Below, piece by piece: positions 7,101-64,000 of a stretch of 64,000 nt of DNA; within the stretch, counting starts at the first letter, position 1, and the number at the start of each line of letters is the position of its first letter. A program made the translations under genes and the position numbers. The notes under the pieces were generated by a model. The model ran no database searches. It was not told where the DNA came from and saw nothing but the letters and a program-made list of their open reading frames with translations. This DNA comes from Leptasterias polaris (Eukaryota; Echinodermata; Asteroidea; Forcipulatida; Asteriidae), in contig JAZGTN010000074.1 of NCBI GenBank assembly GCA_037783415.1, forward strand, positions 1 to 64,000. Direction: 5' to 3'.

Positions 7101-10100
7101 ACGTACCAGTGCATTCGTTATCATGTGGACTATGCTAAAGTAAGCTAAGAGCATAGCTAGTGAAACAAAATTTATAAATCTAAATTCGGCAGTAAAAGTG
7201 TTTGTTTAAGAGGAGTTTATACGTGAGTATTTTTTTTATTTTTATTTTAAACTTTTAAAACAATAATAATTACCAGTTCTATAAAAAATCTCATACGAAT
7301 GAACACTTTGTATAATTCAATAATTGTTTATCTTTTCTTGTAGGGTTTCATTCGTTTCACTCCTACGGGGCATATCATTGGAAACCTACTCATAGAACAA
7401 AATATTGGTGAGCTATACACTTTAAGTAGTACGTTTTAGCCATGAGCCAAATCATCCTTCACTAGTTTACTTTGGACAGGTCTGTTAGTTTCGTGTCTAT
7501 AGTTTTATAGTGCAGTTGATGACAGCTTTTTATTCTTACAACATGAATCGACATATTCCATCTTTCTGCATATTGTCCAGAATAAGCGAACTGGATGCAG
7601 AATACTGCTGATAGCCGCGGCCTATAGTCGGCCAATGGCTGTTCTCAAGAGATAGAGAAAGGACGACTCCAAAGATTAGGAATTAGATCAGAACCAGGAG
7701 TCTGAGGTAGTTTGGGCAACATACAGTATAGACTACCGTACAGATCAAGGGCTAAATAAACCTTTATCATGGTGCGGTCATTGGGTTTTTGCCCTTCATC
7801 CCAATGTAACCGACCTGAGACTGGAAGGGAAACAGTATAGTCTGGTTCATTTAAATGGAAAATGGTGGGAAGGAGTTGTCATTATCAAATGTGTGAGCAG
7901 GGATCCCTACCAAGATAGCCATACAATAATAAAGGCATATGTACCTGTTATAGCTTGTCAGGACACATGTTCCCTGGAAATATGGAAGACGCGGTGACCA
8001 ACTTTCCGGCATGCTTTGCTGAAATAAGTAACGAAATTTACGGAAGTCAATGAAGTATCTTTTTATGTTGGACTTTATGTTTTACTTGTTACATTTTACA
8101 GGAAGTAAAGAGCACCTGATTGCAACTTATGATACTATTGTAGCGTTTGGCCCAGACCGTTCAGCGAGAGGGCGCCAGCACGGGCTCGGTGGGAGCCGTG
8201 TTACCGAGCGGCCTCCTGGAGGGCGCTGTGACACGGCACCGTTGTTAGAGCTGTGTCGCAGCGGGCCCCTCGCTGAACGGCTGGGACACCCGTCTCGTTG
8301 GGAAGACGTGGCCTAAACGTTCTTCTTGTCATGTGAGTCTTGGAGTAGAGACGTGTTGAATAAACCAGTAAAGAATTGACCGAGAAAACTGTATCCTGCT
8401 GTGTGTTTTTGTTGTGTTCTGCTGAGAAGAACCAGTGGACAATTATTGTTACATTGGTGGCAGCGACGGGACGGCAGGAGCACTAGCAAGACACTGGAAT
8501 CAGGTAAAAAGATTGTTTTCTCTGTGGGGGTTTTCACGTGTGTTGGGTAGTTTGGCGTCAGACTCAGCAGATGCTGGGGACACGCCGAGCCAGACTCAGA
8601 CAATGGGTGGGCCATTGTGGTCTACAGTGGATGAGATTTTATCATTCCTAGGGCTGGGAGAGGCCGGTAGGAGCAACAGTGGAGATGAGGGGGGTCAGCC
8701 ACAGGTTCTTAAGGTCAGTAGAGTCACGTCCACGTCGGGTCAGGTGGGCGCGGGGGGTCGGAGCGGTACCACACGGAATCGTTCCGGCTCCCTCCGCAAC
8801 GTACCGGCACGAAGTGGGCGGAGGGGTCGGGGCGATCCCTCGGAATCGTTCCGGCTCTCTCAACAGAGCACAGACACGAGGGGGCTGGAGGGGTCGGGGC
8901 GATCCCTCACAGAATCGTTCTGGTTCTCTCAACAGAGCACCGACATGAGAGGGGCGGAAGGGTCGGGGCGACGGAGCACCGACGTGAGGGGGGAAGGATC
9001 GGAGCGGGTTCCAAGGAAGCAGTTCTGTGCCTCTCCGCAGCATGCCCCAGAGACCAGGGAGGGGTTGGGGCGGTCCCACACGGAACCGACCTTCCCCTCC
9101 CCGTGGCATTCGGCGGGAGACATCAGAGCGCGGCTCTTTTCGGAACTGGGCCATCCTCACCCCGGACATGCGGTTGTGGAGCAGCTTTCTTCGGGGCCTT
9201 TCTTCCGGGAGCGTGCCCACATGGGGGATGCCCAGTCTACACCGCAGCGGGCCCAGGAGCCACGAAGTCACGGCACGGAAGTGCGTGGTCTTGTTGACCA
9301 GAGGCTGACAGCACAGGCCTATGAGACAGAGAATTTGATTCAACTCGACCCCGCACATTTCTTTTGTGCGGAGCCTGTCAATCAGCTCCGCACTGCACAA
9401 ACCTATGGAGCGGAGCCCACGGCTCAGCTCCGCACTGCACAAACCAATGGAGCGGAGCACACGGCTCAGCTCCGCACTGCACAAACCTATGGAGCGGAGC
9501 ACACGGCTCAGCTCCGCACTGTACAAACCTATGGAGCGGAGCACACGGCTCAGCTCCGCACTGTACAAACCAATGGTGCAGAGCCCACGGCTCAGCTCCG
9601 CACTACACAACCCTATGGAGCGGAGCTTGTCAATCAGCTCCGCACTGTACAAACCAATGGAGCAGAGCCCACGGCTCAGCTCCGCACTACACAACCCTAT
9701 GGAGCGGAGCTTGTGAATCAGCTCCGCACTGTACAAACCAATGGAGCAGAGCCCACGGCTCAGCTCCGCACTACACAACCCTATGGAGCGGAGCTTGTGA
9801 ATCAGCTCCGCACTGTACAAACCAATGGAGCAGAGCCCACGGCTCAGCTCCGCACTACACAACCCTATGGAGCGGAGCTTGTGAACCAGCTCCGCACTGT
9901 ACAAACCAATGGAGCAGAGCCCACGGCTCAGCTCCGCACTACACAACCCTATGGAGCGGAGCTTGTCAATCAGCTCCGCACTGTACAAACCAATGGAGCA
10001 GAGCCCACGGCTCAGCTCCGCACTACACAACCCTATGGAGCGGAGCTTGTGAATCAGCTCCGCACTGTACAAACCAATGGAGCAGAGCCCACGGCTCAGC

Positions 10101-13100
10101 TCCGCACTACACAACCCTATGGAGCGGAGCTTGTGAATCAGCTCCGCACTGTACAAACCAATGGAGCAGAGCCCACGGCTCAGCTCCGCACTACACAACC
10201 CTATGGAGCGGAGCTTGTCAATCAGCTCCGCACTGTACAAACCAATGGAGCAGAGCCCACGGCTCAGCTCCGCACTACACAACCCTATGGAGCGGAGCTT
10301 GTGAATCAGCTCCGCACTGTACAAACCAATGGAGCAGAGCCCACGGCTCAGCTCCGCACTACACAACCCTATGGAGCGGAGCTTGTGAATCAGCTCCGCA
10401 CTGTACAAACCAATGGAGCAGAGCCCACGGCTCAGCTCCGCACTACACAACCCTATGGAGCGGAGCTTGTGAACCAGCTCCGCACTGTACAAACCAATGG
10501 AGCAGAGCCCACGGCTCAGCTCCGCACTACACAACCCTATGGAGCGGAGCTTGTCAATCAGCTCCGCACTGTACAAACCAATGGAGCAGAGCCCACGGCT
10601 CAGCTCCGCACTACACAACCCTATGGAGCGGAGCTTGTGAATCAGCTCCGCACTGTACAAACCAATGGAGCAGAGCCCACGGCTCAGCTCCGCACTACAC
10701 AACCCTATGGAGCGGAGCTTGTGAATCAGCTCCGCACTGTACAAACCAATGGAGCAGAGCCCACGGCTCAGCTCCGCACTACACAACCCTATGGAGCGGA
10801 GCTTGTGAATCAGCTCCGCACTGTACAAACCAATGGAGCAGAGCCCACGGCTCAGCTCCGCACTACACAACCCTATGGAGCGGAGCTTGTCAATCAGCTC
10901 CGCACTGTACAAACCAATGGAGCAGAGCCCACGGCTCAGCTCCGCACTACACAACCCTATGGAGCGGAGCTTGTCAATCAGCTCCGCACTGTACAAACCA
11001 ATGGAGCAGAGCCCACGGCTCAGCTCCGCACTACACAACCCTATGGAGCGGAGCTTGTGAATCAGCTCCGCACTGTACAAACCAATGGAGCAGAGCCCAC
11101 GGCTCAGCTCCGCACTACACAACCCTATGGAGCGGAGCTTGTGAATCAGCTCCGCACTGTACAAACCAATGGAGCAGAGCCCACGGCTCAGCTCCGCACT
11201 ACACAACCCTATGGAGCGGAGCTTGTCAATCAGCTCCGCACTGTACAAACCAATGGAGCAGAGCCCACGGCTCAGCTCCGCACTACACAACCCTATGGAG
11301 CGGAGCTTGTCAATCAGCTCCGCACTGTACAAACCAATGGAGCGGAGCCCACAGCTCAGCTCCGCACTGCACAACCCTATGGAGCGGAGCTTGTGAATCA
11401 GCTCCGCACTGTGCAAACCAATGGAGCAGAGCCCACGGCTCAGCTCCGCACTACACAATTCTATTGTGCGGAGCCTGTCAATCAGCTCCGCAAACAACCC
11501 CATGGAACGGAGCCAACGGCTCAGCCCCGCACTGTACAAACCTATGGAGCGGAGCCTGTGAATCAGCTCCGCACCTGCGGAACGAGTGGAGGATGGAGCG
11601 GATGGAGTGGGAACCGACGGAGACCCAGCGACAGCCACCGCCGGGGACGGCCGGACCAGAGACACAAGGCCAACAGCCATAGTAGGACAGACTTGCCAGC
11701 CTTTTTGTTGTTGTTGTTGTTGTTGTTGTTGCGTGTTCCCACCGGGACGGGAGTTCGCTGCCTGCTTGGGGACAAGCAGTGTTCTTGGAGGGGGCAGTGT
11801 AGCGTTTGGCCCAGACCGTTCAGCGAGAGGGCGCCAGCACGGGCTCGGTGGGAGCCGTGTTACCGAGCGGCCTCCTGGAGGGCGCTGTGACACGGCACCG
11901 TTGTTAGAGCTGTGTCGCAGCGGGCCCCTCGCTGAACGGCTGGGACACCCGTCTCGTTGGGAAGACGTGGCCTAAACGTTCTTCTTGTCATGTGAGTCTT
12001 GGAGTAGAGACGTGTTGAATAAACCAGTAAAGAATTGACCGAGAAAACTGTATCCTGCTGTGTGTTTTTGTTGTGTTCTGCTGAGAAGAACCAGTGGACA
12101 ATTATTGTTACACTATTTTACATGAGATCACGTGGTCTGTTTCTCCGGATTCACTGTGGTATTACAGTGGTGAGTTTATGTCAATAGTAAGCCTACTATA
12201 GCAGCTTAATGTCACAATGCACGCTGCCATCTCGTTTACGTCCAATCGAATTGATGTAACCAGGCCGAGTTTCTTTTATCCCCAATTAAACTAGCCTTTG
12301 AAAATCTCATTTCAAAAGGTTGTAGCGTTTTTGAGCTATCGCGAAATATCTGATGCGGTTATATCCACGCAGGTCGAATTATCCGTAATTGGAATACACA
12401 ATCTGAGAAACGTTTCATGCAAAACGTTTCTTAGACTGACAATCTTTTGAATCTAAAACCACATTCCTTAGAAAGAAATCTTTCTCAACATTTTATAAAT
12501 TATCAACACCTGCAGTGCTTCTTCACCAAGTAAGTTTTTCTGACCATTATTTTATTGAGCAATAATAGGCAATAATCCTACACGTGTTTTACAGGAAATC
12601 ATAAATAAGCAGCAGATTAGTTTTGTTGCTATTGTCGTCAGGTGACTGTTCGGCAACGCTAAACATTTTATTTGCTTGCATGAGGTCTGATTTAACTCCT
12701 TGATTCATTTGTAGGAGGTAAGCCTCCATACGATTCAGACATAAGAGAAACTGTCACTATACTCCAGGCCACGCCCATCGCTGTCATGGTTGTTTTGTCT
12801 GTGCTTTCCTGCATGGGTCTTATTCTTGCCTTGATATTTCTCGGATTCAACATCTGGAAGCGTAAAAACAAGTGAGTCTTGTGCAAAGAGTATAGAGCGC
12901 CGAAGGCGCAAGATGGGGAACTCCGGCTGAAATGTGAAATGTGCACAGGACGCCATTTCAGCAAGCAACTCTTTTGAAAAGAAAAATAGCTCAGTGCAGA
13001 CAATGACCATTGCTATCAATGAAAAACTAAATATTTGCTTGATGAAATGGCGCCCATGGTTATTTCAAGTTCCCGAAAAGATATAGTTCCAGTTCCCCAC

Positions 13101-24699: not shown

Positions 24700-25500
24700 G
24701 AACGAGAACATTTAAGGGAAATGAAAGAGTATGATTTAAAGATAGCCAAAGAAAACGCCAGAGCTCAAGCAAACACTAGCCAAGTACAAATGGTAGGATT
24801 ATCATTAAGTCACCTAAGTTACCTCAATTCAAAGATAGACAAGATGACTTAGACTTGTACATTAGAAGGTTTGAGAGGTTTGCGAGTATTGCTGAATGGC
24901 CTACAGAAGACTGGGCGGTTGCCCTAAGTTCTTTATTATCTGGTCGGGCACTCGAGGTCTATTCGAGACTGCCTGATGAGCAGGCACAAAACTATAAGCA
25001 GGTAAAATTAGCGCTACTTAGGAGGTATAGATTAACAGAGGATGGTTTAGAGAAAAGTGTAGAATAGCTAGACCAGAAGAAGGTGACACATATTCGCAAT
25101 TTGCTGACCGTCTTCAAGACTACCATATTAGATGGATTGAACTAGCTGGAGTCGATAAGAAATATGACACTTTGTTGAATTTGATAGTGAGGGAACAGGT
25201 CATATTAGGGTGTTCAAAGGACCTCATAGTATTTCTCCGTGAACGTAGGCCTAAGAGTTTAAAAGAGATGACCACTTTTGCAGACCAATATTTGTTAGCT
25301 CACTCTCAGTTTTCAAACACAGTTAGATCTAAACAGGATAAGAGTAATCTATCAGACACCCAGCTCAGTAAAACTAGCGGTAGCAGAAACAGCCAGAATA
25401 GAGTTCCAAATAGTCGTCCTCAGAACACTTCGCAGTTCGGTTGTTTTACCTGTGGTGAAAAAGGCCACATAGCTCGAAATTGTAGAAACCGGTTTAGTAA
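24700..25500 (+). pseudogene. Gypsy 1 gag, frameshifted
   Basis: The capsid-like part includes LYIRRFERFASIAEWPTEDW and LLSGRALEVYSRLP. The frame breaks near 25065 and resumes with YSQFADRLQDYHIRWIE. A CCHC zinc knuckle (CFTCGEKGHIARNC) lies at 25442-25483. A helical gag of this type with one knuckle is usual for Gypsy/BEL elements. Confidence 0.8.
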
Positions 25501-25699
25501 CAAGGTACCCCGAAATAAAGTAGCAGGTTTATCTGTTAACGACGGAGTAACTCAAGTCCAGGAAAAGCTTGAGACTAGTCAGCCACTAGGGGCATGTATC
25601 GATGTTCCCAGACCATGTCCGTGCTTAGCTAAGTTAGGGAAACTGGTAAAGTTAGCTGGTGGAAACGAGATACCTGTAGCTAGTGCCGCGTGTACTCTA

Positions 25700-25914
25700 G
25701 GCAATGGTATGCCTGTAGTTAAAGGGTTTGTAGGATCGACGAAGGTAAATGTATTAAGGGACACAGGTTGTAGCACTACGGTGGTTAAGAGAGACTTAGT
25801 TAGTGACAGTCAAATTGTAGGGACCGAGCAAAAATGCATACTACTTGATGGTACAGTGCGTAGCTTTCCAGTTGCAAAAATTAGGGTAGACACACCGACA
25901 TTCAAGGAATTCTG
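25700..25914 (+). pseudogene. Gypsy 1 aspartic protease remnant
   Basis: Contains VNVLRDTGCSTTVVKRDLV near 25745-25803, where D-T-G is the catalytic triad of retropepsins. The frame stops at 25913. Confidence 0.75.
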
Positions 25915-25941
25915 AGTGAATTCAGAGATGTATTAACAGAT

Positions 25942-26615
25942 GTGCCGGGTAGAACCAAATTGATCGAATTTAGTGTAAATTTGACAACTTCACAGCCAGT
26001 GAAAACCAAGGCATACCCCGTGCCTCATGCATTAAGGGGCACTGTAAACTCAGAAATTGAAACTATGGTGAGAATGGGAGTCATAGAGAAGTCAGAGTCG
26101 GCTTATGCATCCCCCATAGTTATTGTGAACAAGAGTGATGGAAATGTCAGACTTTGTATAGATTTCCGAAAACTGAATGCTATAACAGTCTTTGATCCTG
26201 AACCTATCCCAAATATAGAAGATCTTTTGGCGAGAATTTCCGAGGGGAAAGTGTTTACACAGATTGACCTGTCCAAGGGATACTGACAGATCCCCCTATA
26301 GCAGAAAAGGACAAAGATAAAACTGCCTTTGTTACGACAGAAGGGGGTTTGTTTCAATTTACAGTACTCCCATTTGGTATGGTAAATGCACATGCAGTGT
26401 TCAGTCGCATGATGCGTAGGTTGTTAGATGAAATCGATCATGTGATCAATTACATAGACGATATTTTGATCTTTACTGATACCCTTGAACAACACACATG
26501 TGTACTTCATAATTTACTTAAGCGTTTACGTGCCATTGGCCTAACAGCACGACCGAGTAAATGTTATGTAGCATATAAATCCATTGAGTTTCTAGGGCAT
26601 GTTGTGGGTGAAGGG
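25942..26615 (+). pseudogene. Gypsy 1 reverse transcriptase, truncated
   Basis: RT motifs in order: YASPIVIVNKSDGNVRLCID, QIDLSKGY, FTVLPFGMVNA, then YIDDILIF (26449-26472; the Y-x-D-D catalytic box). TGA replaces the conserved Trp codon after SKGY (26284), and a further frame shift occurs at about 26300. Truncated after the RT thumb. Confidence 0.85.
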
Positions 26616-27109
26616 CTTTTGTTTTTTGGTTACGTAACGAAATGTAATCACGGGTGGTTACTATTCATTGTCACGAGGCAAAATTTTAAAAACGTGACTT
26701 TAGGAGACACTATAAAAAGACAAATAGAGCCACTTGCAAAGCAAAACAAGAAAACTTAAGATGAACCTTATACATAGACATAGAAACTGGTCCACCCCAC
26801 GACTCTGTGGCAGGTGGAAATACGATTCTTGTCTGTCGTGACACGACCTTGCCGACTTTGATTAGAGACGAGCACTTTCCCATCAATACAACCCAAAATG
26901 TCTGGGAATTAACATGTTGAACATGTCAAAGCAGCATAGGCCTATTGTGCTTGATTTTGATACTTTGTAATGTATAAAGTCAACAACAACGGTGCATATA
27001 TTTGTCCAGTCCCATCCTTTATTTCCTGCTCAAAATTACCTCAACTTAATTTAATAATTTTCGTCAAAGAACAATTATATATAGATTTGAAATAAATGCA
27101 CCGCCACTT

Positions 27110-28388: not shown

Positions 28389-29177
28389 TTACTTTTTCGT
28401 TGGCTTCTACCATGGTGTGTACAATATCAGGCTGACTTCGGTGAATCATATATGATGCGTCAGACCCAATAAAACATCTGCTATTAAGATATACAAATCC
28501 TTAAAATCCTTAAAATACAACTATACAACCATATAGAGGGCTTCAGCTTGCCTTGTCTTGCTTTTATTTTGCTCTGATTTATGGCTCGCAAAATCGGCCA
28601 AAATCGTTTTTTAAATGTGCCATCTCCCTTTGCTTCTCACATCCTAGCTCTAAATGAATTTCTGCATACCTGGGTTTGTGTTGATGTGCTGTTTTTTGTC
28701 TGATTTGATGACAAATTTGACTTCTTCCTGCATTCAACATTTTTTGAAAACCACTGGATCAACATGGTGTCCGTCGAACTTTCACATGCACATCGAATAC
28801 GACTGTTAGCATTCATCACCATCGTCATCTTCATTTTGCTGAACTTTGGAACTTTGGCGTAAGTGTTTTCAGCAGTTCATGTTCTGCCTCATATTCTTCA
28901 TATGAACCCTGGAATTCTGCACATGAACCACTATATATCCAGAGTCTGCCGTCGTTAAAGGGCAGCAGTTTTATAAGCCCCATAAGAACCAATAACATAA
29001 ATATAATCAGCAGGAGTTGTAACTTTTTAATAAAAATACGGCTGGCTCATGCTTTTGGAACAACATCCCGTCTTCGCTGGCACTGGAGACGTACTTTTCA
29101 TGGTTGCCCCCGACTACGCTATCGGAATCATGATTCAACATTTACGTGCTGTGTACACAGTCTTCTTTCCATTGCTG

Positions 29178-29295
29178 GAGATGTCCACCCCAATCCGGGA
29201 CCTAACTATAAGCACCCCTGTGGCACCTGTAGCAAACCGGTTAAATCTAACCAACATGGGCTTTTATGTTCCAGCTGTGGGGCGTGGTTTCACAC
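29178..29295 (+). pseudogene. 2A-like motif and PHD-like zinc finger of the LINE
   Basis: One frame reads LLSIAGDVHPNPGP followed by C-x2-C...LLCSSCGAWFHTK, then a TGA stop where the next cysteine-containing stretch should start. NPGP preceded by a hydrophobic stretch is the form of 2A/2A-like sequences known in APE-type LINEs. H replaces the usual E of D-x-E-x-NPGP. Confidence 0.65.
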
Positions 29296-29439
29296 CAAAT
29301 GACAGGGTGTCTCTCTGTCAGAATACCGCAGACTTTATTCTTGCCCCGATGAGCCGTGGACTTGCCCTCATTGTTCCCTCCCAGTGTTCTCAGATTCCTA
29401 TTTTGGTGTCAGTCTTAAATCTTCAATGGGCTCTGTGTC

Positions 29440-30115
29440 ATCTGGAATGGGGCCGGTGGCCGGTAATCACTGCATTTTATTTAACGCCCGGAGCATTAAG
29501 AACAAACTGGCTGAACTAGAATCTCTTCTGGAGTCCACCAATATCAGTCTGTTTGGAATTACAGAAACGTGGTTGGACTCATCGATACCTGACGGAGCTA
29601 TTAGCGCCAATCATAATCATCTTTAGGAAGGACCGTAACGCAAGAGGAGGTGGTGTCCTGTTGGGAGTTTCACCCGAACTGCACCCTATTGCAATCTGTC
29701 GTCCAACTCTGAATGATCTTGAGTGCATCTTTGTGTCCTGTACCATAAAGAATGACCCTTGGCTGTGTGGTGTGTACTATCGTCCACCTAATGATGCAAA
29801 CTCTCTAGACTTGCTTGAGAATGCCCTACTTTCATTGGACACTAGTCGGTTTGTAAACATTATATTGATGGGTGATTTTAATGTGAACTGGTGTGAAAAT
29901 AATGGTTCTCATCACTTATTACCTTATTTAAAAAATATAACGGGGGGTGTCGGGCTTCATCAGATTGTTTCTAAACCTACTCGGGTTGTGCTAAATGGCA
30001 CCAGTACTGTTCTTGACCATGTATTTACTACTCAACCTCACCAACTGACTCATGTTAATGTTTTGGACCCTTTCTCCACATCAGACCATTCATTGATTAG
30101 TTTTAACATTCAGGG
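29440..30115 (+). pseudogene. LINE AP endonuclease domain, one frame break
   Basis: Conserved endonuclease motifs are present: ILFNARSIKNKLAELES, FGITETWLD (catalytic E), GGGVLLGV, ILMGDFNVNW (D and N) and TSDHSLISF (final SDH). The frame changes near 29620. Confidence 0.85.
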
Positions 30116-30319
30116 TTTGTCTGGAACCATGCCTAGGTTGTCTCATTCTCGTTATAGTTATTCTAAGTGCGATGTTGTTCTTTTGAGTGAACTCGTTAGG
30201 CGTTCCTCTTGGGAAAGCATTTATTACAGTAACGATGTTGACACGGCGTGGGCATGCTTTCTTGATCTCTTTATGTCATGTATTGATGAGAGCATTCCTC
30301 GTTATACTAATCGAAAACG

Positions 30320-30925
30320 TAGAAAGCCCTGGATCACTAATGAGATTAGAAGGCTTGTTACCAAGAAGCGTCAAATGCTATGTTAAATTTCTTGCTTGTA
30401 GGAATGATCAACAGAATAGTTCCACCCTATGGAAACAATATCGTTCCTTGAGAAACAAAGTTAGGAACAAGACAAAAGCTACCAGAGCTCAATACATTCA
30501 TCACTTGCTGACATTGAAAGATAATGGTAAACGTTTTTGGTCTTATATCAAAACCAAGCGTACTGTCGCCCAGGTGAGGTCATTTAAGATTGATGATGTC
30601 ATGTCATGTAATTCTCAGAATATAGCCGACACTTTTAATATTAAGTTTGCTGCTCATTTTACAGACTCTCTTAGTACACTGAGTGCCAGACGGGAGTACT
30701 TGCTCATGTAATTTGTCTGTATGCAGCTCTTGTTTGGTAACCGGGGTTATTTTCCACCGTCACTTCTGAGTCTCATCAATGTTAATAACAGACATTCTGA
30801 TTCTAGGTTAACTTTTCACCACCTGTTTGCTCGCACAGATACATTTTTAAATTTATTTGTATTTAAAAATACTCTATGCCATGTCTTTTTATCAGAAACT
30901 GGAGCTCTTATCCGGTTAACGTTGT
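30320..30925 (+). pseudogene. LINE ORF2 linker joined to its C-terminus
   Basis: RRKPWITNEIRRLVTKKRQM, WKQYRSLRNKVRN and GKRFWSYIKTKR are the standard stretch between endonuclease and RT. It runs to FAAHFTDSL near 30670. Next comes a segment with FARTDTFLNLF, typical of the very end of ORF2. Roughly 1.5 kb of RT is missing. Confidence 0.75.
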
Positions 30926-38900: not shown

Positions 38901-41900
38901 AACATGAGTTTTTCTGTTGCTGTGGAAATCCTGTTACAATTTTATTAATTTAATTCAATATTTGCATTCACTTTTGCTGAGGTTGGAGTGTCTGGAAAAG
39001 AACTTCCAGTTCAGCACCATGCACAATTTGATGTATTTGAAATTTTACTTCTGCCCTTTTAATAGGGGGAAGTTGTCTGACGGTGTGGGCCATAGAGTTA
39101 AAGAAGTGGTCGATGTCGTCCTCTGTCTTTTGTGCCTTATTTAAGTAATTCATTATTGACTGATCTACCTCTGAACTGTTTGCCCTCTTCCTGGGTGTAG
39201 CAGTGAATGACTTGGCTGGGGTACTAGTACTACTAGAGGCTTGAACTGAAGACATTGAAGGAATTGATGTAGGTAGTGAGGCAGCTTCAAAACCATCCTC
39301 ACTGCATACACTTGCTTCCTCAGCATCCAACTGCATCTCCTCCGGTAGATTACTAGTTGTTCTAGAGAAAAAAGGGCAAAAAAGAAAACATAAAATTAAA
39401 GATGAAGCTTAAAGGCACTGAACACGTTTTGTAATTGTCAAAGCCCAGTATTCTCACTTGGTGTATCCCAACATATACATAAAATAACAAGCCTGTGAAA
39501 ATTTGGGCTCAATTGGTTATTGAAGTTGCAAGAAAATGATGAAAGAAAAAACACCCTTGTTGTACAAATTAGTGTGCTTTCAGATAGGAATAAAAGGCTT
39601 CTGGCCAGAAGTCTTTTATTATTTTAGTGAGAAATTACCTCTTTCTCAAAAACTACGTTACTTCGGAGGGAGTCGTTTCTCACAATGTTTTATACTATCA
39701 ACAGCTCTCCGTTGCTCGTTACCGAGTAAGTTTTTATGCTAATATATATTTTGAGTAATTACCAAACGTGTACAGTGCCTTTAAGTAAATAAAAACAGAT
39801 AGTAAAAACAACCAATTCATTGAACCATTGAAAAATTCAATACATTTAGTTTGTTTTTTTGTGTGTTGTTGGGTTTTTTTGGGGGGGAGTGAGTGTTTGC
39901 GACTTCCAAAAAATTATACTGAACTTACTCTCTGTGTTTCAGATGAGGGATTAGAAAGCCAAGTATGTCTGCATATTTGTACTTTTTCACAGACGATGCA
40001 CTCTTTTTGGCAGCCTTCTTCTTTCTATATGTGTGGAACGCATCCCTGATGTTCGTCCATCGCTTACGTGCTGCCTCCCCTGCAAATTTAACAGAACAAA
40101 AAATGATTTAATAATATGATTTGATTTATGTCAGGTTCCTTGCAACTGGCGACTCCTACAAGACAATCTCCTTCAGTTACAGAGTTGGAAAGTCAACTAT
40201 CGTGAGTATAGTACCAGAGGTCTGTGATTCTATCTGGCGACATCTACAACCCCTGCATATGCCAGTTCCACAGGAGGCAGACTGGATTGCAATAGCCAAA
40301 GGCTTCCAAGATCAGTGGCAATTCCCAAACTGCATTGGTGCAATAGACGGAAAGCATGTTGTCATCCAGGCACCTCCAAATTCTGGGTCAAGCTTCTTTA
40401 ATTACAAAGGGACATTTTCCGTCGTCTTAATGGCACTTGTTGATGCCGACTATTGCTTCACCTTGGTTGATGTTGGAGCATATGGTTCACAGAGTGATGG
40501 AGGCATATTTGCCCTATCTGCAATGGGGAAGGCCCTGCACAGAGAAAACCTATCCATCCCACCTCCAAAACCCCTCCCTGGTGCCCCTGAGCTTGGTAGT
40601 ATGCCTCATGTGATAGTTGGAGATGAAGCATTCCCACTGAAACCATACCTCATGAGACCATTCCCTGGCCAAGAGTTGGATGACAACAAGCGTATCTTCA
40701 ACTACCGGCTTTCAAGAGCGCGTCGAGTAGTCGAAAATACATTTGGCATTTTGGCAGCAAAGTGGCGCATTTACCAGAGAAGGGTTCAACTTTGTCCATT
40801 AACTGTGGATAAAGTTGTAAAGGCTACGTGCATTCTACATAACTTCATCAAGCACACCTCTGCCAATGCATCAAGCAACACAACCAATCATCCTCCAGAA
40901 GTGGGAAGAGATCACCATGGGCCTATTTGTGACCTTCAGAATACAGGGAACCATGCCTCCCAAGAAGCATATGATGTGAGGAACACCTTCACTAAGTATG
41001 TGATGTTGCCAGCTGGTGGGGTAACATGGCAGAGAAACGCCTGTTTTGGCCATGCGAAGTAGATCATGTATCCTGTCAGCTTATTAATATTGCTAGCATT
41101 AATAATGCTAGCAATATCATTCTAATGACTCGCTGTGATAACTGCAGCTTCATTGAGGATTAGTCCCTCGACCTAGTACTAGTGTAGTAGTAGTACTACT
41201 ACGTAGTAGCTACAAACACAAAGGCCTGTTTAAAATTCAAGGTGTCACAAATTTTCCAAAGTTCATTTTTAATATGACAAGAGTGGCCCTTGAGCCTTGA
41301 AACAAAAATGTAAATCTGGTTCTGAATCCCCTCAAAATGAAGTAAAAGGTGTTTTTTTTAGATTACTTGTAATTTAAATTACTTGTAATTTGTAAATAAA
41401 ATTAAATTACACATTACTCAATCTTAAAGTTGACGCCCAGGTAGCACACGTCACTAGTTGGTTGTTTTTATACAGGTCAATAACCATTTTATGAGTACTC
41501 TATTTTAATTCTCAATATCATTGGTGGAATTCATTGTCAATGTTGGAAAATTTAACTTTAAATTATTATTATTTTTTTTTTTGGGGGGGGGGGGGATTAT
41601 TAGTATTGGAATTGTACTTTGATTCCAAGGATGCGACTCCACCAGGGCGTGTTATGTAGTATCTATTTAGATCTAGATCCAAAGGAAACTACAGTAATCC
41701 CTGTAGCTGCTGTATGGCTCCACCCAGCCGGCCAGCCAGTCCATGTTTTTGATTTTCCAATGTATTATTAATGTAATTTGTAACGGGATTACATAGTACT
41801 ACACAATGACTGGACACCAACTACACGATACAATGACTTGTTGACCTCTGACATGAACTACGTGATCCTATGTGATCCTTGTGTGTCCTTTAGTTACCCA

Positions 41901-44900
41901 AATAAATCATCTTTAGTTCGATTTAATATTCTGTCTCAGTCCTCCATATATTACTCCAGCCTTCACCATCGAACAAAGGTAACACTAGGGAAAGCGTTAC
42001 AATGGCGTAGTCGGCAGGATGGCTGTTTAGACTGGATGATTTTGTGGATTTTGACAATGTAATGATGCTGTGAAACCATGCCATGTAGCTGAGTGAGTAC
42101 ATAAATCCAGAACAATATCATGAACATTATGATACCTACATAGCTGATATAACTATCCATATTCTGAAGAGAACCCTGTTAAATGGTGGCCAAGCCAGAG
42201 ATGTATGAACTGTATTTTGTACAATAAAATCTTTGCTGAATTTGAGGTAAAAAAAAAAATGGCTGAGAGGGCGGTATATCTTCGACGCTTCACAAACGAA
42301 TACATAGTCCAACTATGTCAGATCAACCACATAGATGTAAACGAGATTAAGACAAAGCAATAAAGGATCCAATGCCTTTGTGACCTTCCCCAAATGAAGG
42401 AACCACAACCTGACCAGCCCCAAAAGCAGCCAGGACTAATAGATATCTCGCAATTGTTGTTGAAGATGGAAGAGAACCGCAAACAGGAGACTGAGGTCCT
42501 CTGTCAAACCCTCCTGAAGGCAGTCACTGAAGCTACCAAGGCTACAGCTCCCACTAAGATAAGATTTGGTCCCGAATTGCCTGATTTCCATAAGCTGTCG
42601 AGTGACGATGACATCACCTGTTACTTGACGACTTTTGAAAGAATGGCCACAGCAGAGAAAAGACCGAAGGAAGAGTGGCCTCGTCTACTTGAACCTTACC
42701 TCACCGGTAAAGCACAGAAAGCCTTCCACGCACTGACTGAAGAAGATAAAAAAGATTACGCCAAAATCGTTGCAATTATTCTTCGTCATTACCAGTTAAC
42801 ACCAGAAGCATATCGCTTTAAGTTCAAAAGTGCTTCAAAGAAACCTGATGAAACCTTTGAAGAGTTTGCGACAAGATTGGAGCTCTACTTCAAAAGATGG
42901 GTCAAACCTTCTGATGAATCATTGGCATTGGATGATGTTAAGAGAATGACAGAGCTCATCATGACAGATCAACTCCTAAACTCCATTGCTGATGAACGAC
43001 TCCGTCTTAAACTAAGAGAAAAGAAACTACCCACAACACAGGCGACAGCCAAAGCCGCTGATGAGCACATTCTTAACAGAAAGATGTCGTCCAATCCAAA
43101 CACCACTTCATTTAAGCCACAACAGTTCAGTCAACCAAACTTCCACCCTACCGTGTCTCGACCCAATCAATCAGACCACAGACAAGAACGTCAGGACCAA
43201 TCCAAGTCAGAAAACTATCAGGGTAAATCATCCTTCGCAAAGGGTCGCCCACCAACCAAAACAACCGGAAAGTTCGACTCGATCTGTTACAGATGTCATG
43301 AGATGGGTCATCGGATTGCTGAGTGCCCCTATCCACCAGCACAGTCAAAACAATATCAACCAAAAGTACATGCAGACTCCAAACCATTCGCAATGAAGTT
43401 TAATGAAGTCTCAACCAAACCAGAGCCAACAAAGCCACAAGTTAATTTCTTGATGAATGTCCCCCCCCGATGATGCCCCCAGTGTAGAGCACAGAAACAG
43501 TGGCCCTTACATTACTGTGACTGTTTGTGACCATGAGATTACAGGTTTGATAGACACCGGTTCCTGTGTTTCTCTCATTACAGAAGAGCTATGTCAATCT
43601 TTAGCTCTAACCACAACACCCGAGTCTTCAAGCTCATCGCTCTACATGGTTGATGGGACCGAATTTTCACCTGTGGGGAAAATTCTGACCAAAATTGAAG
43701 TCGCTGGTGTGGAAACCCAAATACACCTTCAGCTGATGAAAAGTATGCCAACTCCACTACTACTTGGGCGAGATTTTGCTAAGCAAGTCAACCTTGTGAT
43801 GGACTTTCACATGAACTCATTTTGGTTGGAAGATGGCATTGATGACCACCGCATCAAGTGGCCAATGATCCATGAACCCCCTCAGAAGGAGAAAAATGGC
43901 CCCCCTACATGTGACGCTAAACCAACCCTTACTACCCATAACAGTCTTCCTCTACAGAATATACTTTGTGAATTCCCTGACGTGATAACTGAAAAGCCAG
44001 GGCGAACAGACATTGTAAAACACTGCATCTACACTGGAGATTCACAACCCCTCCGTGGTCCAGTGTACCGTCTTTCCGATGATCGTCGTCAGTCACTACG
44101 GAAACAGTTAGATGAAATGCTAGCTGATTGCAGAGTTGAGCACTCTTGTTCACCATGGGCATCCCCTGTGGTAATGGTCCCAAAGAAGGAGAAAGGTGAC
44201 TATCGACTATGCATCGATTACAGAAAGCTAAATAAAGTCACAAAGCTTGATGCTTACCCAATGCCAACTATCGACTTCATCCTTGAGTCACTACATGGTG
44301 CAAAAATCTTCAGTTCTCTTGATTTAAAGAGTGGTTATCATCAAATGAAAGTGCACTCAGATGACCAGGAGAAAACGGCATTTATTTGCGAGGAAGGACT
44401 TTTCCAGTTTACAGTGCTACCCTTTGGAGTTGTCAATGGACCTGCAAGTTTCCAAAGATTAATGGAAATTGTCCTCCAAGGCCTGATTGGGAAGATCTGC
44501 TATGTTTATCTTGATGACATTGTGTGTTACTCCTCTACACCTGAACAACACAACGTTGATCTCTATCAAATTTTCCAGAGACTACATCAGTCTGGCTTAA
44601 CAGTCAATAAAGGAAAGTGTACCTTCGGCTGCAGCAGCATGAAGTACCTTGGTCATATAGTTGGAGCTGATGGCATTCGAACCGACCCAGAGAAGGTTCA
44701 AGGAATCTTTGACTACCCCACCCCAACGAATCTTAAGCAACTTGAGAGGTTCTTGGGCATGGTAACCTAGTATGCAAAATTCATACCCAACCTGGCCAGC
44801 ATCGCAGCCCCACTGAACCAACTACGACACAAAACAGCAAAGTGGGAATGGAACGAAGATTGTCACTTATCTTTCATCAAGATGAAATCAATTCTCACTT

Positions 44901-47900
44901 CAGAACCAGTACTGATGTACCCAGATCCAAGCAGACCATTTGTTGTTCACACCGATGCTAGCAACACAGGTTTGGGGGCAGTACTTCTGCAGGAGACAAA
45001 TGGAGAGCTTCATACAATAGCTTACGCCAGCCGTTCCCTTGATACTTGTGAGAGGAACTACAGCACTACTGAGCGAGAGTGTTTGGCCGTGATTTGGGCC
45101 CTTGAGAAATGGAGAGTGTATCTTGAAGGAAAACGGTGCCAAGTTGTTACAGACCACCAAGCCCTCACCTGGCTTTTCAAAAAAGCAAACCTGACAGGCA
45201 AATTTGCTCGATGGGTGCTAAGATTACAAGATTTCTGCTTCGATGTAACCTACCGACCCGGTGCCCTACACCTGGTCCCAGATGCTCTCTCAAAAAAACA
45301 ATCGTAGCAGTGGTCCAAAGCCTATCATCTCCAGATGATACACCTACCGATGACGTAAATTCAACCACCACAGCTACCAATGATGACACTGGAAATGAAA
45401 GCTGTGCCGCACCACGCTGTGAACTTCCCCAGACTTACCCGGTCAATTGGATCCAGTGTGATGGTTGTGATCAATGGTATCACTTGCTGTGTGTACATGT
45501 CAAAAAGAAGCAAGCCCAACAAATGCCTTCTTACTCCTGCCCCTCATGCAAAAAGAAGCGTTGGGAAACAAGACGAGAAATTGAGTGGCAAACTACAGGA
45601 GCCAACAATCAAGATGAGGCAACAGTTCCAATGCTTAATTTTGCACAACTACAAATGCAACAGGCTGCAGACCCATCCCTATCTGTACTGAGAAAGGATG
45701 TGCAGAATTCCCTTGTGTACCGCCTCAAAGATGATGTGTTGTACCACTACAACAAATTGAAATGGAAGCTGGTTATCACTCAAAACCTACTGCTGGTCAC
45801 CTTGGCCGTACCAAAACCCTGCACCGACTTCATGATCTTCATCTATGGTGGAAGGGAATAACCACGGATGTGCGAAATTTTGTGAGAGCGTGTAAAATGT
45901 GCAGGCAGACCAAGCCAGTATTTCGTAAGCCACCAGGGCTTATGCTTTCTACCACTTCTGAGACCCCATGGGAGATTGTTGGTGTGGATTTAATGGGACC
46001 ACTTCCAAAGAGTTACAGTGGACACGAGTATCTACTTGTCGCAGTTAACCATTATACTAAATGGGTAGAAGTGTTTCCAATGCGCAAGGCCACTGGGAAA
46101 GCAGTCGCCTGTCTGATCGTCCGACAATTGTTTAGTAGATATGGTGCCCCACGGAAACTGCTGTCGGACAACGGCTCTCAATTTACCTGCAAAGCCATGG
46201 AAGCAGTCTGTGTGGAATGGGGAGTAGAACAGGTGTTTATTTCACCTTATCACCCTCAGTCAAATTGGGTGGAAAGAGTGAACCGTAACCTCAAAGCCAT
46301 GATGCAATCCTATGTGGGTGATGATCACCGTACTTGGGATATCCACGTTGCAGAATTTGGATTTGCCATGAACTCAGTTGCACATGCTACAATAGGCATA
46401 GCCCCAAGCATTTTGATGACTGGAAGGAAACTTCGCACACCACTGTCAAAAAAACTCAACATTGACAGTGCCCCTCCAGAGGAGCCTGGACTACTCAGGC
46501 AGAAAGTCGCTGAACAAAATGTTCGCTCAATGAAGAAGAGGAAGAAGTTTTATGACAAAGGACGCCGCATCGCCGAATTGACCATTGGAGAAACAGTGAT
46601 GCTGAAAACGCACCCCCTGTCTAATGCCAAAAAACATTTTGCTGCGAAACTTGCACCCAGATGGTGTGGACCATTCATTGTCACTGAGCGCCTGACCCCT
46701 GTTAACTATAAACTGACTGCGATCGCTAATGCCAAGAAGGAAGTGATTGCACATATTGATCAGACGAAGTCATGTGGATCCTCAGACCTTAAGTGAGAAC
46801 TGATAGAACTGTCGGACTCAGGAAGTATTTTTTTGTTGAACCCGTTGGTTGTTGCCCAAGCTGTTGTTACAGTTGAACTCAGTTACAAGTTGCACGTTTA
46901 AAAAAAATAAAAAATAAAAAATACAACAGGATAGCCTTTGAAAATTTGTTTTCTGTAGCACGTACAAAACATAAGGTGTTTTTTTTTTGGAAATTTTGAA
47001 ATTGTTGGTATGTTAAAAAAGAAAAATAAGACATTCAAAATGCAGCATTAATGAAAACTTTTATTTTTAATTTTTTTTAAGAAGAAAAAAAAGAAAAAAA
47101 TAACAGTTAAGGTGAACTGTCTCTAGGCAAAAAAAATATGCCTTGTTTTTTGTTGTTGAGTGATTTCTATGGATAGGACTTTGCTACTCACTGGAGAGGA
47201 CATTTAAGAGTAACCTTTGAACATTGAACTCTACAAAGAAACAATTTTTTTAGTGGATTTTCAAGTTGAAGATTAGTGCCTACTTAGTGTTTCTGATCTC
47301 GATGTGATTTAAACAGATTCTCCACATGTATGCCTTTTCTAGTGGAGGAGAGTGTAACGGGATTACATAGTACATGTACTACACAATGACTGGACACCAA
47401 CTACACGATACAATGACTTGTTGACCTCTGACATGAACTACGTGACTATAAACATTGAACATGAACATGTGACTTACATTGACTGATGCATGCTGGGATA
47501 CCTTCCAAGATGGCAACCTATGTGATCCTTGTGTGTCCTTTAGTTACCCAAATAAATCATCTTTAGTTCGATATAATATTCTGTCTCAGTCCTCCATATA
47601 TTACTCCAGCCTTCACCATCGAACAAAGGTAACACTAGGGAAAGCGTTACAAATTGTATGACGTACGATTTACACTTTAATAATATTTATTATAGCCTAG
47701 TTTCTCTGTCCTTTCTCTATAGTTTTACTTAGTTTGTAAAGTTGTTACACTTACCAGAGTTTCCCTCCACAAACAGTTACAGACATAACATCAACTTGAG
47801 CCATACTTTGTATTACAACTTGTACAAGTTGTGTACAAAATATGGCTCAAGTTCACGTAACGTCTGAGAAAAAAAGTATCAACCCTGTGAGAGTGCTGCC

Positions 47901-61550: not shown

Positions 61551-61603
61551 GTGATTTGATTCACGCGTGGTACCTGTAATGTTTGACAGTGATATTTATT
61601 ATT

Positions 61604-61756
61604 AGGTGTTCGGGCTTAGAAGCCCGAACAACTCCTTGTTTTTGTTCGGTTTTTTTTAGGTGTTCGGTCTACAGACCGAACAACTCTTTGTTATTGTTCG
61701 GTTTTTAGGTGTTCGGTCTACAGACCGAACAACTCTTTGTTATTGTTCGGTTGTTT
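61604..61756 (+). repeat. Three tandem hairpin units (GTTCGGTCTACAGACCGAAC)
   Basis: Units of about 50-60 bp start AGGTGTTCGG. The first has the palindrome GTTCGGGCTTAGAAGCCCGAAC; the second and third have GTTCGGTCTACAGACCGAAC. Each is followed by AACTC(C/T)TTGTT(A/T)TTGTTCGG. They lie just 5' of the EEP nuclease start codon (minus strand). Confidence 0.88.
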
Positions 61757-61898
61757 TGTTTTTTTGTGTGTTTTTTTTCTTCTTTGTTTTGCTTATTCCT
61801 CTCAGTGGGCTTTGTCCGCAAGCAAACGCATACTTGCGAATCTTTGATCAACTTGAAACTTAATGTGAAGTTAGAACATAACTAGGAGAAGCCGAGTA

Positions 61899-62275
61899 AG
61901 TTGTGACGTCATGATTACGTCATCAGGTGTCAAATTACAAGCCATTTTAGGTCCAAAGGTGCTCTCATTCCAATGCCTGTATGTCTCTGAATATTAAAGC
62001 TACAGTATTCATAATTGGGCATATGATAGATCAAGACACGGGCAACATTTGAAAAGTTAACGCCAAAATCACACGACCTTTACTTCCGGTCGTACCGGAA
62101 GGTCAAAGTTTGCCTTTGTGAAATTCTATAAATTTTGTCTTGGTACAATTTTCCGGCGAAATGATTAACTTCAGTATATCTGATCAATTTCAAATTTATA
62201 CCATGTAAGGACCCTTGATAAAACCTCCATCAAGCAGTTGTGACGTCATGATGACGTCATCAGGTGTCAAATTAC
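61899..62275 (+). repeat. Direct repeat with TGACGTCA sites
   Basis: GTTGTGACGTCATGAT.ACGT CATCAGGTGTCAAATTACAAG occurs at about 61899-61941 and again at 62229-62272. Each copy has a CRE-type TGACGTCA and a second ACGTCA half. It lies between the divergent EEP nuclease and RAG1-like genes. Confidence 0.75.
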
Positions 62276-62279
62276 AAGG

Positions 62280-63230
62280 TTTTAAAGATTAACAATTTTA
62301 ATCTTTGAAAATCTATATCAAATCAAGACGAAGGGACCGTCGATTGCCTAACGCAGCATGGCATACCTCCTCGCGACTGATTCCATTGCGCAACGGTGGG
62401 TAGGCTTGCTAGTCAAGACGCTTGTTGGGCACGGCCGTATCAAGCCCATTAACACAGCGCATTAAAAGATTTCGCAACGAACAAACGTTTCCTCCAGTAA
62501 TGAAACAACAATCCGTTTCCAAAATGGCGGAGGCTCAACGTTAACGTTGAATAAAAAAACGATAATTACATTGAATTGTCCATACATAACCAATTGATTT
62601 TCGAGTTATTTGTTCATAATTTATCATAAACACTTTCAATCGATCACTTTTATTTATTGAGAGTAATAATGTGTGAGGAAAAATATAAAATATGAGGGTT
62701 TTTCCACCCTGGTAACTGGACGTGAATTCCCGAAGATAGTGAGAAACTGTTGATTCTAAAATGTCCCAAAATAAAAATTCTGGGTTTTCCCGATAAAGTG
62801 GAGCCAATTTCTTGAAAAAAATATACTTGTTTTCCCTAAAGCCCAAACGAATAAAACAAGACAGCGGGCATATTTACAAGAAATAGATTTTTAAGAGTGT
62901 GTTTTTCACGGAGATGAACAAAAAATCACGTAAAACTCCTATTAAAATGTACACACAGTCGCAGACGTGCACCGCGCACCTCCACAGCCAACACGTCAAT
63001 AGCGCGCGGGATGCAAAACGTAGATTAGTGTAGTAAAAAGATCTATGTACTACTACCATAGCTCTATGACTACTACTCAGTATGTTGTTTACGTTCGTAT
63101 CGCGATCGTCAAACACAGACTCTCAAATAAAGATGTGTTGAACAAACAGACTGCAATACTACTGTGATTCACTGTTTCAAGGTAAACACTTTATTGCAAC
63201 GATGACATCTTTACAGGAAGTTTTCCAGAT
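62280..63230. other. Upstream region of the RAG1-like gene
   Basis: Contains a CAACGTTAACGTTG palindrome (62537-62550) and AT-rich sequence. No convincing terminal inverted repeat with a CAC-starting heptamer was found, nor another gene. Confidence 0.5.
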
Positions 63231-64000
63231 ATGAATACATTGCAGTTTCATCAATTAGCACTTGATAAGTTGTGTCGTGTGTGCACAAAATTAAATACAA
63301 ATAATTCATATGTGGCAGTGGATTGTGCACAATACAGAAAGGAATTAGAAATACTGTACAGTATAAATATCTGGCTCGATGATTCAACAAGGCATCCGAA
63401 TAAATTATGCTGGAGGTGTGTGCGTAATTTGACACATTGTAAACAACAAACTAGGGAATTTGAATATTCATCTGCTACACAAAAAACTACTGACGAATGG
63501 CCGACTCACTCAAGATCTGGAACATGCACCACATGTGAGCAGTACAGAAAAAGTACTTAAGGGGGGTCGCCCTGTTAAGAGAAATCGTACTGGAAAAGGT
63601 CTTCCGAACATTAATCCACCGAGCCTCAACAAACAGGACTGTGAGAAAAGTTATCTGTTTAACTTTGCGACTAATGATTCTGCGTACACAGTTCCCCCAA
63701 ATCTCGACATTCTTGGCACAGAGAAGGCAGTGGAGACAATTTTCATATGTGCAATATGCCAGTGTATCCTGAGCTCCCCTTCTGTGCAAACTCAATGCGA
63801 ACACAACTACTGTTCTTCATGTTTAGAGCAGTGGTTCGTTTTTCGAGGCAGTCACACCGTTCCCTGCCCTGTATGTCAAGTTAGTGTGAATCATGACAAC
63901 GTCACATCATCACCCCGAATTTTGAGGCTTCAGCTTAGCACATTGACAACAGTTTGCACAGTATGCGGAACAATAGGTAAACTGTCCAAAATGGCTGACC
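63231..64000 (+). pseudogene. RAG1-like gene, 5' part, one frameshift, runs off the window
   Basis: The first part (63231-63560, 109 residues) matches the RAG1 zinc-binding region that precedes the RING: LDKLCRVCTKLN, WLDDSTRHPNKLCWRCVRNL and, after a Trp/His pair, CTTCEQYR. The order C-x2-C ... D-D-x3-HP-x2-(F/L)C-x2-C ... C-x2-C is that of RAG1 (CRICG ... HPTxFCHNCW ... CDIC). After a +1 frame change at 63556-63565 the second part is open to the window end. It contains a C3HC4 RING, CAICQCILSSPSVQTQCEHN then YCSSCLEQW and CPVCQ (63748-63878), and a further C-x2-C (CTVCG) where RAG1 has its ZFA finger. The RAG1 core (DDE nuclease) would lie to the right, outside the window. The start ATG at 63231 is likely. 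Alternative: an N-RAG-type transposon that carries only the RAG1 N-terminus. Confidence 0.82.

Follow-up and report, generated by a model that had tools for sequence, protein, structure and literature searches.

A RAG1-like N-terminus in a sea star genome is very probably part of an internally deleted Chapaev-type transposon

A RAG1-like first exon at the edge of the window

The stretch of DNA analyzed here (the window) comprises 64,000 nucleotides, positions 1 to 64,000 of contig JAZGTN010000074.1 (C74) in an assembly of the sea star Leptasterias polaris that totals 629.7 Mb in 334 contigs. Near its right edge, an ATG at position 63231 of the forward strand begins a coding region with the zinc motifs C-x2-C, DD...HP..LC-x2-C and C-x2-C, followed by a GGRP-basic stretch, a RING finger and a further C-x2-C (Table 1). 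A preliminary description of the locus regarded this succession as specific to RAG1. The motifs and their order are real, but the coding sequence of this first exon is divided between two frames rather than carried by one. The first frame (63186-63557) is closed by a TAA codon at 63558-63560, and the second, which carries the GGRP, RING and later zinc motifs, is open from 63433 across the edge of the window to 64392 in the contig. The shift between them lies near 63.55 kb.

Table 1. Features of the window, with continuations beyond its edge in contig C74
Feature	Position	Strand	Basis or remark
Probable Chapaev-type transposon, 5' part	62430..64000 (whole: C74:62430-66603, 4174 bp)	+	near-identity boundary, termini, duplications
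Left target site duplication, TGGG	62426..62429		right copy at C74:66604-66607
5' terminal inverted repeat, CACGGCCGT	62430..62438	+	3' copy ends at C74:66603
Exon 1	63231..64000 (whole: C74:63231-64272)	+	to donor after LKTPGR; splice sites predicted from sequence alone
First frame of exon 1, RAG1-like zinc motifs (Chapa domain)	63231..63557	+
RAG1_imp_bd (PF12560) match	63357..63551	+	Pfam
Second frame of exon 1: GGRP-basic stretch, RING, zinc motif	63556..64000	+	shifted in window copy
RING finger (zf-C3HC4)	63748..63876	+	Pfam
C-x2-C of zinc finger after RING	63955..63966	+
LTR retrotransposon with protease, RT, integrase	42364-46796
Second gag-like frame with zinc knuckle, then RT-like frames	25031-26759		RT-like frames by eye
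DDE_Tnp_4 transposase	40115-41062
LINE-type endonuclease frame	28748-30711

Elsewhere in the window, the DDE_Tnp_4 transposase is one that we take to be Harbinger-like. An 84-bp tandem repeat (9368-11574, 26.3 copies, 96% matches) sits inside long open frames of 1154 aa (forward strand) and 1107 aa (reverse strand).

The best Pfam family for the first piece of exon 1 is RAG1_imp_bd (PF12560; E 1.7e-4, 1.6 bits below the cut-off). The zf-AD family matches this piece more weakly (E 0.019); thus, of the two kinds of profile that the preliminary description had set against each other, RAG1 or another RING/ZAD family, it is RAG1 that prevails for this piece. The RING piece matches zf-C3HC4 at E 4.1e-7. 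The PF12560 match weakens to E 0.0059 when the query is the 257-aa read-through and lies above E 1 when it is the 521-aa product of a sister copy, C173. A PF12560 search of the genome (16 matches, E ≤0.001) includes neither the C74 locus nor its near-identical short copies.

Exon 1 has 14 relatives (E up to 0.01) among 110 candidate proteins, with E values from 4.4e-29 to 4.8e-72 and identities of 36-64%. One of them is a 357-aa protein that NCBI names "V(D)J recombination-activating protein 1-like [Asterias amurensis]." These matches and those from Pfam place the likeness far above chance, and, judged from its sequence, the RAG1-like order of motifs at the locus is genuine. Among 15 aligned family members, PF12560 is detected at E up to 1 in seven and RING models in all. 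When a profile of the family was compared with solved structures, RAG1 chains ranked 6-8 and covered the RING and the next zinc finger (profile positions 170-274, E 5.6e-7), although BRCA1, RING2 and RAD5 chains slightly outscore RAG1 on the RING part. One RAG1 chain also aligns to the N-terminal half of the profile (positions 5-106, E 2.5e-6), a half that, among the best 60 of 120 structure matches, is covered by that chain alone. A search of the PDB with the first frame alone gave two matches, at E 0.76 and 0.95. A search with X-padded queries for further full-length relatives produced one among 562 candidates, a 394-aa protein already counted, and relatives were confirmed for none of 48 pattern stretches in viral_contigs and none of 63 in genome_contigs.

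Splice sites predicted from the sequence end exon 1 with LKTPGR, before a GT donor after C74:64272, and place further exons at C74:64642-64873 and C74:64961-65253, the latter with a stop. The last exon contains ...PKMHLLENH...GFGLLNEQGGELIHTEFN..., and its E motif reads NEQGGE. Of the motifs of a DDE transposase, these two exons retain just the C-terminal pair, H(4)H and E, and they align with relatives that carry the whole set of transposase landmarks described below.

The preliminary description had proposed following the contig to the right in search of a RAG1 core and had itself held that the lack of one would speak against its reading; no core lies downstream in C74. A search of the genome with PF12940 lists three matches, all in contig C160, and the spliced product of C173 matches RING models but not PF12940 at E up to 1. 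By eye, no RAG2-like kelch gene was noticed among frames of at least 70 aa in C74:62001-82000; the RAG2-like model PF03089 matched nothing in the genome and was silent on control sequences as well. A reading in which exon 1 stops where the RAG1 nonamer-binding domain begins was rejected on the frames of C74:62001-82000.

Contig C160 contains two similar pieces that resemble the C-terminal part of a RAG1 core, on the reverse strand (485829-486412 and 917286-917702) and with a SGEGNEAANKLFREL stretch. One of them matches PF12940 at 4.7e-20, and among the genome matches listed nothing outside this contig is RAG1-core-like. In C30, the region of position 4407365 holds an 825-aa open frame with RAG1-N-like zinc motifs and then long threonine/proline-rich repeats, in which no RING was seen by eye.

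Ends and copies of the element

The window ends inside an element that begins with CACGGCCGT at 62430 and ends with ACGGCCGTG at C74:66603, with TGGG on either side. Four copies are 99.4-99.9% identical to C74, with identity starting at 62419-62430. Ends were inspected in 11 copies of at least 67, and 10 of these were readable at both ends. All 10 are flanked by a matching 4-bp duplication (TGGG, CTGC, GTGT, TGGC, GGAA, TGCG, ACAC, GGCT, ATGT and CCTA). The 5' end is CACGGCCGT in nine of the 10, including C74, and the 3' end is ACGGCCGTG in all 11. The exception is C113, whose 5' end is altered and whose duplication (TGGC) depends on the start position chosen. The eleventh copy, C9, was read at its 3' end only and carries a frame that by eye resembles a LINE reverse transcriptase. 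The preliminary suggestion of a RAG1-like, non-core N-terminus outside vertebrates that resides in a transposon was right. The ends start with CAC, as in the terminal repeats that it proposed to look for; the duplications are 4 bp long rather than 5 bp.

The copies in C260, C89 and C103 lie at different points, and in both orientations, inside one flanking sequence that is itself repeated, which may reflect a target preference or nesting within another repeat. Just to the left of the element in the window are a 49-bp tandem repeat of three units, each with a short palindrome (61601-61757), and a 43-bp repeat whose TGACGTCA cores are separated by 337 bp (61899-62278).

These ends bear on the proposal that the locus is a ProtoRAG or other RAG1L (TransibSU) element, or a relic of one, in which the exon would lead into a RAG1 core accompanied by a convergent RAG2-like gene. 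Such an element would account for the zinc motifs, the RING and the following zinc finger, for the RAG1 chains that match both parts of the family profile and for ends that begin with CAC. However, Martin et al. (PMC7204232) describe 5-bp duplications for RAGL elements, those of protostomes included, and report that RING/ZDD is missing from echinoderm RAG1L. The duplications found here have 4 bp, the locus has no RAG1 core (the PF12940 matches listed being confined to C160), and the downstream exons encode a transposase C-terminus of a different type. With the protostome RAGL consensus CACTWMCAAAC..., the ends of the element share CAC and not the remainder; when two mismatches are allowed, this consensus matches the window 108 times, against a mean of 85 in shuffled sequence, with many of the matches in one tandem repeat. 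From the missing core, the 4-bp duplications and the different transposase C-terminus, we regard the ProtoRAG reading of the C74 copy as refuted and any RAG1L origin of the locus as extremely improbable. Because CAC ends are common to RAGL and Chapaev elements, the length of the duplication bears much of the distinction between them.

The RING part of exon 1 has at least 132 matches in the genome (150 of 174 candidates scored) and the last exon at least 140 (150 of 198 scored), so that counts derived from them are lower bounds. The 67 exon-1 matches with at least 97% identity were paired with the 66 last-exon matches with at least 99%. Sixty-six of the 67 find a C-terminal partner, in at least 57 short copies, at least six long copies and three others; exon 1 of C35 lacks a last-exon partner. 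The distance between the two match starts is exactly 1404 bp in 55 of the 57 short copies and 4223-4243 bp in the long copies, and it is 1547 bp in C26, 2226 bp in C312 and 2804 bp in C9, which has an insertion. The window copy is one of the at least 57 near-identical short copies and lacks ~2.8 kb.

Five short copies that were aligned differ by 0-9 substitutions per ~4160 bases. Amplification was very recent, and the locus is not an old relic of the ancestral transposon. The copies also bear on a third proposal, in which a host gene was domesticated from a RAG1-like N-terminus at this locus. Although a gene of that kind seems to be present elsewhere in the genome (C66, below), at least 67 near-identical matches, this locus among them, are dispersed in the genome, and the locus itself shows inverted ends, a target duplication and a frameshifted exon 1. 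The copy structure excludes domestication at this site, a reading with a probability close to nil.

The sequence in C66, near position 1799359 (L012:2261-3958), is a 566-aa open frame with RAG1-N-like zinc motifs, a RING, a zinc finger and a GRPRK tail. It matches PF12560 at 1.8e-5, above the cut-off, and contains none of the seven transposase landmarks. Its protein is 86% identical to one of Asterias amurensis, 59% to one of Acanthaster planci and 54% to one of Patiria miniata, over 98-100% of its length; two of these homologues are named uncharacterized and one RNF146-like. These identities fit a genome close to that of Asterias. The C66 frame appears to be a host gene that sea stars have conserved and that may have been domesticated from a Chapaev-type N-terminus.

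Exon 1 occurs in two versions among the 57 short copies. Its frame is long (402) in 25 and shifted (320) in 31, with another length in one; the window copy is of the shifted type. An assembly error might produce such a shift, since it falls in a run rich in A, a place prone to possible read errors, and programmed frameshifting might make use of one. However, the shifted length is common to 31 short copies and missing from 25, and in the alignment of five copies the two that are unshifted have a common gap pattern relative to the three that are shifted, which fits two subfamilies. Programmed shifting, moreover, leaves the copies without a shift unexplained. Either explanation of the two frames seems very unlikely.

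Relatives with a whole transposase and the origin of the short copies

Translated frames of 15 fetched regions were scanned for seven landmarks: GGDKGG (D1), GDYE-like (D2), C(2)C, LHISLG (PLH), F(V/I)GNHVH (FVGNH), PKMHxLExH (H4H) and (G/N)EQGGE (E). The results are pattern matches rather than checked exon models. Ten of the 14 regions other than C74 contain all seven in order: C58a, C136a, C20, C26, C52 and C136b, which form one family, and C58b, C205, C58c and C6. C74 shows the last two only. The four incomplete regions are C90 (H4H only), C58d (D1 only), and C30 and C66 (none). In PMC12730594, C(2)C and H(3-4)H are given as motifs of the CMC/Transib/RAG1 group. Among solved structures, nothing matched a profile of the core exons at E up to 1, and the sole Pfam model above its cut-off for the core is DUF1280 (1.6e-10).

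Several relatives also have recognizable ends with 4-bp duplications: C58c (CACGGCTGTTTC, CAAA), C6 (CACCGCT, GCAC), C58b (CACCGCTGTT, ACAC) and C20 (CACGTAT, ACTG). Because 6 of 200 shuffled C58c sequences give an end match of at least 6 bp, the 7-bp cases are weak when taken alone. In the C20 family, the 4 bp match in three of four copies checked, with C136a failing, and a search of C205 for element ends found none.

A second family gives a similar picture. C90 (C90:1923001-1933000) and C205 match at 94-98% on either side of ~3.6 kb that C90 lacks, from which C90 appears to be another internal-deletion derivative with a RAG1-like N-terminus.

Taken together, these observations indicate that the locus is very probably the 5' part of a cut-and-paste DNA transposon of Chapaev (CMC) type that is non-autonomous and has undergone internal deletion. 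This assignment rests on ends, duplications and order of motifs, and it is slightly weakened by the 4 of 14 regions with an incomplete set of landmarks and by the absence of the locus from the PF12560 genome search. The hallmarks given for Chapaev in PMC4079192 include duplications of 3-4 bp and 5'-CAC/GTG-3' ends. The element has inverted 5'-CAC...GTG-3' ends and, in 10 of 10 copies, 4-bp duplications. A DDE domain in which C(2)C and H(3-4)H separate the second D from the E is lacking in the window copy and present in 10 of 14 other regions. A Chapa domain followed by a RING is seen in the architecture, with the likeness to Chapa judged from the published description.

The proposed complete form would encode one multi-exon transposase with a RAG1-like Chapa zinc region, a RING and zinc finger, and a DDE catalytic domain. 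The short form has lost ~2.8 kb, including the exons for the catalytic D residues, and retains exon 1, the last two exons and the two ends of the element. The exon for the first D is consistent with this proposal. A query taken from the relative C58c has 78 matches (128 of 128 candidates scored), of which one lies inside each of the six long copies and one beside exon 1 of C35; none occurs within 6 kb of any of the 57 short copies or of C26, C312 or C9. Long copies were assessed for D1 only, at 68% identity to the query.

We infer that the transposase of long copies binds the CACGGCCGT ends and mobilizes short copies in trans, and that every insertion duplicates 4 bp. Movement of the short copies in trans is likely, because short copies with the frameshift are no fewer than those without it (31 versus 25 of 57) and an intact frame is seemingly not needed in cis.

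In-frame short copies could nonetheless yield a protein. In C173, three exons join in frame into 521 codons, with GT-AG ends and matching phases, and the product would contain RAG1-like zinc fingers and a RING but no catalytic D residues. The KP protein of the P element is a repressor of transposition. The 521-aa protein might similarly be a working regulator of its family rather than debris, perhaps one that represses through ubiquitin ligase activity of its RING. The joining of the C173 exons, the long exon-1 frame in 25 of 57 short copies and retention of both N- and C-terminal parts are compatible with such a role. However, the 31 shifted copies have spread too, and an open frame is no sign of selection when the identity of the copies reflects their recent origin. 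We consider a regulatory function unlikely.

Comparison with known systems

The closest known elements are Chapaev transposons that carry a RING. Kapitonov and Koonin (2015, PMC4411706) describe two Chapaev subgroups in which Chapa is followed by a RING, and TransibSU without a RING. With TransibSU and echinoderm RAG1L both reported to lack the RING, an echinoderm RAG1-like N-terminus with a RING points to Chapaev. The element described here resembles these Chapaevs in its N-terminal Chapa and RING and, by the PMC4079192 hallmarks, in its CAC...GTG ends, its 4-bp duplications and the DDE transposase of its complete relatives. It differs in that Chapa, as presented in PMC4411706, was described from lancelet and sea anemone Chapaevs, whereas here there are several families in a sea star. 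The window copy, moreover, derives from internal deletion and belongs to a set of at least 57 near-identical copies. Chapa with a RING in Chapaevs is thus already published, and the sea-star element adds a member. No published report of these elements was found in the titles and abstract starts of open-licence PMC articles. A burst as recent as this one would make Chapaev transposition testable.

ProtoRAG, RAGL and TransibSU elements have in common with the sea-star element the RAG1-like N-terminal zinc motifs and CAC ends, and the RAGL elements of amphioxus and molluscs have RING/ZDD too (PMC7204232). RAGL elements differ by their RAG1 core, convergent RAG2L gene and 5-bp duplications; the C74 element has neither a core nor 5-bp duplications. 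With vertebrate RAG1, the likeness is confined to the non-core region, where profile searches align the RING and zinc finger and the upstream zinc motifs; no core follows in the C74 element. Thus, a false ProtoRAG lead is removed: a RAG1-like N-terminus with a RING does not by itself mean RAG1L. The naming of the 357-aa Asterias protein may share this confusion.

N-RAG-TP of Aplysia (Panchin and Moroz 2008) is described in PMC8355894 as a transposon made solely of the RAG1 N-terminus. By that description and that of PMC2996935, it resembles the C74 element in coding for a part like the N-terminus of RAG1 without a RAG1 core. The two were compared by description only, and they differ in that the missing transposase is here explained by deletion, with long copies in existence. 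The sea-star element gives a clear case of a RAG1-N-only transposon explained by deletion, with long copies elsewhere in its genome. It illustrates how an N-RAG-TP-like transposon can arise, and C90 and C205 provide a second case. A wider proposal, that RAG1-N-only transposons such as N-RAG-TP are generally internal-deletion derivatives of Chapa-RING-DDE Chapaevs and that the in-frame derivative here is a catalytically dead RAG1-N/RING protein that regulates its own family, is speculative, and we think it unlikely. If the relation held generally, the donor of the RAG1 N-terminus, supposed to have been free-standing, would from the outset have belonged to a complete RAG1-related transposase, the origin that Kapitonov and Koonin proposed (PMC4411706).
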